This document shows positions 35,932 through 38,263 of a DNA stretch of 64,000 nt, piece by piece. The stretch comes from Ghiorsea bivora (lineage in GTDB: Bacteria; Pseudomonadota; Zetaproteobacteria; Mariprofundales; Mariprofundaceae), in NCBI RefSeq assembly GCF_000744415.1, contig NZ_JQLW01000012.1:1-64000 (forward strand). The letters run 5' to 3'. A program made the translations under genes and the position numbers. Position 1 is the first letter of the stretch. Each line of letters starts with the position of its first letter. The notes beneath the pieces are model-generated. The model did not search any database. It was given only the letters and a program-made list of their open reading frames with translations, and was not told where the DNA came from.

Positions 35932-36315
35932 ATGAAAAGATTGTTTGGGTCTATTGTGCTGAGTTTGGTCGGGTTGGCGATATTTATTCTAGTGAGTATT
36001 TTTAGTAGAGCCGCTGTTGGACAATTTATTGTTGATGAAAATGCGCGTGCAGTATTATTCCCCGTACTTTTTATTTTTGCGGTGCTAGTTGGTTCTTTGC
36101 CTTGGATTTTTGCTGCACACTTAACATCTGAAGAGTCTTGGAAACAAGCCACCAAACTACTTTATTTCTTGCCTGTTTACTTTGCTGCACCATCATTCAT
36201 TTTGCCAGCAGTTTCATTTGCTATCATTTTTGTGCTAGCGCGTTTGCATTATATGAAACGAGAAAATGTTCCCTATCGTATGGAAGTGAATCATGATGAG
36301 AAGGGTGAAGCTTAA
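35932..36315 (+). CDS. Hypothetical small membrane protein
   Basis: The protein of about 127 residues has three to four hydrophobic segments (about 5-30, 42-65, 76-105), with a short charged tail (HDEKGEA). AGGAG at 35918-35922 with 9-base spacing supports the ATG at 35932 over the TTG at 35923. No known domain is recognised. It stands alone between glnE and a terminator. Real by coding pattern; function unknown. Confidence 0.7.
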   Translation: MKRLFGSIVLSLVGLAIFILVSIFSRAAVGQFIVDENARAVLFPVLFIFAVLVGSLPWIFAAHLTSEESWKQATKLLYFLPVYFAAPSFILPAVSFAIIFVLARLHYMKRENVPYRMEVNHDEKGEA

Positions 36316-36337
36316 ACGTTAAAGCGGAAGAGTAAGA

Positions 36338-36366
36338 AAAAAGCCTAGGTTTTGCCTAGGCTTTTT
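36338..36366. terminator. Bidirectional rho-independent terminator
   Basis: AAAAAGCCTAGG and CCTAGGCTTTTT form a near-perfect stem with a short loop. The A run on one side and the T run on the other let it work in both directions. It lies between the small membrane protein and the convergent outer-membrane protein gene. The stem core GCCTAGG is shared with the terminator at 17426-17460. Confidence 0.9.
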
Positions 36367-36422
36367 GTAGTTTTTCTCATGCTAACGGGAAGTCAGCAAT
36401 AAAAAGTTTCAAATAAAAAAGA

Positions 36423-36964
36423 TTAAAACTTAACTACTGCACTGATGCCAAAGGCTGTAGCACTCGCAGGATTGGTTCCACTATCGAGATCACCAAAATC
36501 TTCGTATTGCGCGCGTACTGCATATTTTTGGTTGATATTATACTCACCACCAAGTGCGTAATACAAAGATGTTTTGCTGTCACTAGCGCTAACACCAAAA
36601 TTACTCGTGATATCTACTTTATTACTTGCAAACCCAATTTTTCCGAGTAAAGACATTTGCTCACTGATTGGATAGCTACCAACCACTGCAGCAGTGAGCG
36701 ATGATACGCTTGCTGTTGCTGAAGCTCCGGTCGTAGCATCGATAAGTGTTGAGTCTCCAAAGATGTGATAGCTAAGTTCCGCTGCTAATGTGGGTGAAAA
36801 GCTATAACCAAGCCCGAAGTCAAATTTACCTGGGTTTGGAAAACCACCTGTATTTTTATAGGTTGCAGAGCTTAAGCCTACAGTTGAGTAAGCAGTGTTG
36901 TCAGCGGCAAATGCCGATGTTGTTAGCGCTGCAGATAAGGCAGCAATTGCGATTATTTTTTCAT
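36423..36964 (-). pseudogene. Outer-membrane beta-barrel protein with out-of-frame start (phase-off or frameshifted)
   Basis: From codon 36953 leftwards the reading frame is open to the TAA at 36423. It encodes a signal peptide (IIAIAALSAALTTSAFAADN) and then a barrel of about 155 residues ending in the aromatic VVKF. The only sensible start, ATG at 36962-36964 behind GGGGGA, is followed by six A and then TAATC, so translation would stop after three codons. Seven A would restore the frame. The ORF resumes only at a late GTG (36686). The promoter carries a C8 tract in its spacer (37020-37046). It could be phase-off, decayed, or an assembly error. Confidence 0.75.
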
Positions 36965-37019
36965 GTTATGAATCCCCCGAGGATTATATTTCTTATTTAG
37001 AATCAATAAGTTGGGTGTC

Positions 37020-37046
37020 ATTTTAGGTAGGGGGGGGTAGTGTCAA
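37020..37046 (-). promoter_or_regulatory. Promoter with poly-C tract between -35 and -10 (candidate phase-variable switch)
   Basis: On the minus strand TTGACA (37041-37046) and TAAAAT (37020-37025) are separated by 15 bp, of which eight are a C run (G run at 37030-37037 on the plus strand). The ATG of the barrel gene is about 55 bp downstream of the -10. Fifteen bp is short of the 17-bp optimum, and two more C would restore it. Tract slippage between the two boxes is the known switching mechanism of Neisseria porA and opc. The boxes and tract are directly visible; switching is inferred. Confidence 0.7.
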
Positions 37047-37165
37047 GATGTATATTTACGGTGTGCGTTTATAGCCCAGTGGATTGCTATGGTTTTAAAT
37101 TTCTACCTCAGCTTGCCTCATCCATTCATGGTGTCATTAGTGAGGGATGTAAATCCATGAATGTT

Positions 37166-38263
37166 TTAAACGTTAAAACGGAAGTGGAGGATATCACCGT
37201 CTTTGACGATGTATTCCTTGCCCTCTAAGCGCATTTTACCGGCTTCTTTACACTTGGCTTCACCACCAAGGTTGACGAAATCATCATAAGCAATGACTTC
37301 TGCGCGGATAAACCCTTTTTCAAAGTCAGTGTGAATCACACCCGCCGCTTGTGGTGCTGTATCACCCTCATGAATCGTCCAAGCGCGTACTTCTTTCACA
37401 CCTGCAGTGAAATAGGTGGCAAGCTTGAGTAGTTTGAATGCTGTGCGAATCACAGTGTTTAAACCTGGTTCGGTTAACCCCAAATCAGATAAAAATTCCA
37501 TTTTATCTTCTTCGTCCATCTCCACCAATTCAGACTCAATTTGTGCGGATACAACAGCGACTTCAGCATTCTCTGCTTTGGCAAATTCGCGTACTTGTTC
37601 AACATAGGCGTTACCATCAGGAAGTGAACCATCATCCACATTGGCAACATACAAAACAGGTTTTGCAGTCAGTAGGTTCAAAGGTTCGATAATTTCCATG
37701 ACTGAATCAGCATGTTGTTGGCGGCGGACAGTGGTGCCATTTTCCAGTTCAGCAAGAACGGCTTTCATGGCAGCCATTGCATTTTCAGCATCTTTATTGC
37801 CACCAGAGCGGGCAAGTTTTTGTTGGCGCTCCATGGCTTTTTCTAGGCTTTCCATATCTTTAAGCATAAGCTCGGTATCAATGGTTTCAATGTCAGAAAC
37901 AGGATCTACTTTATCATGGACATGCGTAACATTACTATCATCAAAGCAACGTACGACATGGGCAATCGCAGAACATTCACGAATGTTGCCGAGGAATTTA
38001 TTCCCTAAACCTTCACCACTTGCAGCCCCAGCCACAAGCCCTGCAATATCGACAAATTCAACCACGGCATGTTGTACTGCTTGTGGTTTCACAATATCAA
38101 TCAATGGCTTTAAACGTGGGTCGGGGACGGGCACTAAGCCGACATTGGGATCAATGGTACAGAATGGATAGTTGGCTGCTTCTGCGCCGCCGCCATTGAG
38201 CGCATTAAATAATGTTGATTTGCCAACATTGGGAAGTCCTACAATACCGATACTTAGTGCCAT
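37166..38263 (-). CDS. ychF: Redox-regulated P-loop ATPase/GTPase YchF
   Basis: The 365-residue protein starts MALSIGIVGLPNVGKSTLFN with LNGGGAEAANYPFCTIDPNV, the Walker A and switch regions of YchF. It has a helical arm (about 120-200) and the C-terminal TGS domain AWTIHEGDTAPQAAGVIHTD with DFEKGFIRAEVIAYDDFV. YchF (OLA1) prefers ATP and associates with ribosomes. It is downstream of pth on the same strand, the common pth-ychF order. Confidence 0.97.
   Translation of the reverse strand: MALSIGIVGLPNVGKSTLFNALNGGGAEAANYPFCTIDPNVGLVPVPDPRLKPLIDIVKPQAVQHAVVEFVDIAGLVAGAASGEGLGNKFLGNIRECSAIAHVVRCFDDSNVTHVHDKVDPVSDIETIDTELMLKDMESLEKAMERQQKLARSGGNKDAENAMAAMKAVLAELENGTTVRRQQHADSVMEIIEPLNLLTAKPVLYVANVDDGSLPDGNAYVEQVREFAKAENAEVAVVSAQIESELVEMDEEDKMEFLSDLGLTEPGLNTVIRTAFKLLKLATYFTAGVKEVRAWTIHEGDTAPQAAGVIHTDFEKGFIRAEVIAYDDFVNLGGEAKCKEAGKMRLEGKEYIVKDGDILHFRFNV

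Follow-up and report, generated by a model that had tools for sequence, protein, structure and literature searches.

The window, as the whole stretch of DNA under study is called here, comprises 64,000 nucleotides of Ghiorsea bivora TAG-1, the analysed genome of which totals 2,154,483 bp in 13 contigs. On its minus strand, where all parts of this locus lie, a -35 hexamer TTGACA (37041..37046) and a -10 hexamer TAAAAT (37020..37025, matching the consensus at 5/6 positions) flank a 15 bp spacer, CTACCCCCCCCTACC (37026-37040), which reads CTA-C8-TACC and contains the sole C or G run of ≥7 in the 64-kb window (C8, 37030..37037). Judged by its sequence, a homopolymer is therefore placed between the -35 and the -10 of the promoter of an outer-membrane protein (OMP) gene, and the arrangement given in a preliminary description, TTGACA and TAAAAT 15 bp apart around C8, was confirmed at 37046-37020. 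Just 3′ of the -10 is an inverted repeat, CTTATT-N7-AATAAG (36992..37010), a possible operator; an RNA hairpin formed in the leader by the same repeat was set aside as weak, its fold being no better than those of shuffled sequences. A Shine-Dalgarno-like GGGGGA (36973..36978) follows, and an intrinsic terminator-like hairpin is predicted 3′ of the OMP gene (36338..36366). The upstream, co-directional gene (37166..38263), a possible source of read-through, encodes a GTPase that we take from its sequence to be YchF. A mechanical scan of positions 36200-37400 for other sigma-70 promoters, with 16–18 bp spacers, detected none.

The OMP gene itself is closed in the TAG-1 assembly. Its start codon (ATG, 36964-36962) is followed by six adenines and an in-frame TAA (36955-36953), shutting the frame after three codons (36953..36964), and the barrel frame (36423..36956) is open only one base out of phase with this ATG. 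The copies of all relatives read ATG-A7 and are open, so that TAG-1 carries a one-base deletion relative to each of them, and the only ORF listed at the locus is a fragment of 87 aa. Read in the shifted frame, the product has 177 residues, with a signal peptide and an OmpA/OmpX-type barrel: it matches PF13505 (E = 1.6e-20) and PF01389 (8.5e-13) in profile searches and OmpA and Ail/OmpX among PDB entries (about 1e-6), and its predicted structure has eight strands (mean pLDDT 80, pTM 0.73). After the frame break, then, the sequence encodes the signal peptide and eight-stranded barrel typical of PF13505/PF01389 proteins, and surface exposure as an outer-membrane barrel is predicted, yet the frame is closed. 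The signal-peptide barrel previously reported downstream of the promoter holds as to the type of protein (PF13505, eight strands) but not as to an open ORF: as ATG-A6-TAA closes the frame, no barrel can be produced from the gene as it stands in the assembly, and the 15-bp spacer together with the one missing A would leave it without expression in this form.

The remainder of the barrel frame is intact, with no decay elsewhere in the gene, and the missing A is therefore either recent or an error. Poly-A tracts are treated as hypermutable at ≥11 (PMC5953494), a length far above A6 or A7. That the window copy is a recent pseudogene, inactive in TAG-1 today through a one-base mutation in culture, or that the break is a sequencing or assembly error, is accordingly a serious alternative, if one to which we give somewhat short of an even chance; the break set against A7 in all relatives favours it, and it is compatible with a family of variable promoters. 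However, it has no bearing on the promoter, whose conservation extends over four genomes.

Three further Ghiorsea genomes carry close homologues (76–80% identity), one of these genomes having two copies, and high-identity homologues of the barrel are confined to a few genomes of the genus. None of the five gene copies in the four genomes (TAG-1 included) has lost its -35, C-run or -10, the -35 reading TTGAC[AT], with TTGAC invariant, and the -10 being TATAAT-like (TAAAAT, TATAAT or TATATT in relatives). The preliminary description had proposed tract length in relatives as a check, and the tract proved not to be fixed at 8: C count and spacer are C8 and 15 bp in TAG-1, C9 and 15 bp in genome G013, C9 and 18 bp in G011, and C9 and 16 bp or C5 and 12 bp in the two copies of G006, a spacer range of 12–18 bp. 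The C8 of the window is below the usual poly-G/C cut-off of 9, a length reached in 3/4 relatives' copies (C9). The inverted repeat (CTTATT-N6/7-AATAAG) follows the -10 in 5/5 promoters, with one mismatch in G013; AACTTATTGAT...ATAAG is invariant across all five, and the Shine-Dalgarno-like element reads GGGGGA in G013 and G011 and GGGGAA in G006. The two G006 copies have in common ~480 bp that scarcely differ except in the C count (C5 vs C9), their only other upstream differences being one-base homopolymer indels. Because the G006 record is a pilon-polished MAG, and these nearby differences are also homopolymer indels, its C5 is uncertain and may be an assembly effect.

The C8 promoter, initially taken for a lone case, is one of a genus-wide set. 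Places with C8 or longer were listed in 16 Ghiorsea genomes and their contexts read; TTGAC lay ≤20 nt upstream of 19/128 distinct C-runs, compared with 6/128 when the same runs were read as G. A strict pattern, TTGAC-N(0-9)-C8-N(0-9)-TANNNT, matched 14/16 Ghiorsea genomes (20 distinct sites), 8/58 other Mariprofundaceae (10 sites) and 8/225 other Pseudomonadota (9 sites; Fisher p about 2e-15 for Ghiorsea against this last group). The reversed control gave 0 sites in Ghiorsea, 1 in the rest of the family and 17 in other Pseudomonadota, and matched 1/74 genomes of the family. A blind motif free of any C requirement, TTGACN{4,24}GCAAYTANNNTGCC, recovered 11 sites in the 74 genomes, and 11/11 had C7–C10 in the gap; the C-run is therefore part of a recurring promoter module. 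In Ghiorsea this takes the form TTGACt, C7–C11, often followed by (A)GCAACTANNNTGCC, and some members have a weak -10 (TAAGCT, 3/6). The choice of C on the coding strand is marked: the G-run version was rejected, G8 matching only 2/16 Ghiorsea genomes where C8 matches 14/16.

Poly-C runs of other kinds were also encountered. Loci starting TGCTATAGCTGCGCC were rejected as a dispersed repeat rather than promoters; in this repeat (L109, L114, L115, L131, L155, L168), present in several Ghiorsea genomes, C8–C9 is followed by TGCTATAGCTGCGCC or a variant, often ending near TTTCTTTGCTTCGTTTCTTT. Terminator-like hairpins with poly-C loops (L051, L129, L145, L149) were set aside as well. Runs of C17, C19 and C32+ occupy the loop of a conserved hairpin (GGCCTGTCAATT...AATTGGCAGG) in three genomes (L051, G000:C9:200681-200697; L149; L133), with the same gene downstream in both genomes where it is visible and a strikingly variable run length; at L133 the contig stops within the C-run, with the upstream arm alone visible. 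A C14 run lies 44 bp before a sodium/solute symporter-like gene (L050, G000:C6:194877-194890).

Exported proteins dominate the genes behind these promoters. An ORF with a Sec or lipoprotein signal lies about 35–70 bp beyond 19 of the 20 strict sites in Ghiorsea (the barrel of the window being counted in its shifted frame), whereas the same crude heuristic picks out 12/42 genes of the window (p about 1e-6); at the remaining site, L069, a PH-domain protein follows. The targets, mostly unrelated to one another, are barrels, lipoproteins of several families and large secreted proteins belonging to one family. TAG-1 itself carries at least three more, preceding a lipoprotein at L050 (C8), a secreted protein of 644 aa at L055 (C7) and another lipoprotein at L056 (C6); on the TAG-1 contigs the C8 tract is at position C6:196457, and the tracts of seven and six C belong to the promoters at C10:36541 and C6:218536. 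Seven hand-picked, tract-bearing lipoprotein genes with a less perfect -35 (L087, L102, L104, L126, L134, L154, L162) were excluded from the statistics. Outside Ghiorsea, thioredoxin-like genes of two other Mariprofundaceae genera have TTGACG-N2/3-C10 at the promoter position (L183, L184), their product not being exported; two genomes of another genus have a G-run version, TTGACCCGA-C/T-G9/G10-TATAGT (G095:C23:293-319 and G096:C20:16354-16381), and a PF13505 barrel gene with a C10 promoter tract is found in another genus (L176, G066:C234).

Tract length varies between related promoters. Seven pairs had clearly homologous flanks, and in five of these the C count differed: C9/C8 in L102/L126 and L164/L171, C8/C9 in L104/L134, C5/C9 in L057/L058 (the pair from the pilon-polished MAG), and C9/C8 plus an extra TTTG in L062/L065. 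L087/L170 and L112/L132 showed no such difference. Exactly 15 bp was kept despite unequal C counts between the diverged homologues L050 and L068, and between the window and G013. Over all sites, spacers clustered at 14–16 and 19 bp, with 17 bp rare; on the assumption that sigma-70 recognises these promoters, the module would in most assemblies have been caught in a weak state. Missing mismatch repair was rejected as a cause of instability, mutS being intact in TAG-1 and found in 15/16 Ghiorsea genomes. Since mutS is present and C8 is near the short end, slippage rates may be modest; the cut-off applied to poly-G/C tracts in Neisseria is ≥9 (PhasomeIt), and siaD switches at G7 (PMC5953494).

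Taken together, these data make it probable that the C8 tract is a variable promoter spacer, tuned by slippage and belonging to a genus-wide set. Slipped-strand mispairing at replication would add cytosines to the tract or remove them, and each gain or loss would alter the distance between -35 and -10 and with it the level of transcription, as at porA, fetA and opc of Neisseria; the window promoter would be one member of a Ghiorsea set that precedes genes for barrels, lipoproteins and secreted proteins. Slippage of this kind within a population would be expected to yield graded expression, and selection would presumably favour a variable surface. The porA/opc-type switch first suggested for the locus thus gains from the conserved layout, the varying tract and spacer and the enrichment in the genus, but its simple version sits poorly with a tract of C8 (<9), a 15-bp spacer retained between TAG-1 and two relatives despite unequal C counts, a frame-broken ORF, and ychF upstream with no terminator detected.

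In the main rival view, the C-run serves a surface-protein regulon as a conserved cis element, either a regulator's site or the rigid spacer of a special promoter class, and differences in its length between species are neutral drift rather than a switch. Such an element would account for the downstream motif (A)GCAACTANNNTGCC, which is common to unrelated genes and exceeds what sigma-70 plainly needs, for the 15-bp spacer retained in two diverged homologue pairs, for spacers of 14, 19 and 22 bp that look poor for sigma-70, and for the strong strand preference for C. However, a protein site rarely needs an uninterrupted, variable homopolymer of 7–11 bp, different C counts occur on near-identical flanks, and the OMP family of the window retains the tract without the GCAA...GCC motif; we consider a cis element unlikely. 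Transcription of the OMP gene mainly by read-through from pth-ychF, leaving the poly-C site as a minor promoter, appears more doubtful still: the co-directional ychF stops 120 bp short of the -35, and the intervening DNA has no predicted terminator, but the two G006 copies lie in another context, with ychF not directly upstream, and keep the same promoter block. Chance placement of C8 between two hexamers, for which it may be said that the seven C8+ runs in the TAG-1 genome are about what base composition allows, is scarcely credible, and is refuted by conservation of the tract in all relatives, the genus-wide enrichment and the clean reversed controls.

The best reading of these sequences is therefore one of putative poly-C contingency promoters distributed across the genus, the window copy having been caught off or broken. 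A broader proposal, that a reusable poly-C module (TTGACt, C7–C11, GCAACTANNNTGCC and variants) constitutes a phasome of the genus, randomising the expression of many lipoproteins, barrels and secreted proteins and perhaps serving as a defence against phages, grazers or encrustation by minerals, is offered tentatively, as a possibility close to evenly balanced. Promoter switches built on homopolymers have been described chiefly in bacteria adapted to a host, in which immune pressure accounts for them. Were the proposal true, random surface switching would pay without an animal host, in free-living iron- and hydrogen-oxidising vent bacteria, and pressure from phages, grazing or biofilm life would be indicated; the analogy suggests that a non-pathogenic genus of deep-sea iron-oxidisers may tune its surface at random in the manner of Neisseria. 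The literature searched contained no report of phase variation in Zetaproteobacteria, the sole co-mention being in a review on another subject, single-cell methods. Switches of this kind are already known; their occurrence as a module common to a free-living genus is, so far as could be checked, new.

Comparison with characterised systems places the Ghiorsea promoter closest to those of Neisseria. The barrel resembles the OmpA transmembrane domain and OmpX/Ail barrels in sequence match, in its families (PF13505/PF01389) and in its eight predicted strands, but is without a periplasmic domain and, at high identity, is confined to a few Ghiorsea genomes. As with porA and fetA, a homopolymer lies between -10 and -35, whereas the proteins are unrelated and the bacterial class distant; the porA tract, moreover, is poly-G on the coding strand, not poly-C, and porA can also vary through a coding poly-A tract. 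In nadA-type switches, too, the transcription of a surface protein is set by the number of repeats, as it may be here, but the Ghiorsea tract is inside the core promoter. The nadA tract is upstream of the core promoter and acts via NadR/IHF, in contrast to the tracts of porA, fetA and opc, which sit between -10 and -35, the homopolymer of porA and fetA being thought to alter sigma-factor binding (PMC2791445). Unlike opc, the Ghiorsea case concerns a free-living chemolithoautotroph, has a short tract (C8) and an ORF closed in the sequenced strain, and involves a promoter type that is repeated before many unrelated genes, where a flanking motif is often shared. With opc of Neisseria meningitidis it nonetheless shares an uninterrupted poly-C spacer, a small outer-membrane barrel and a tract length that differs between relatives.
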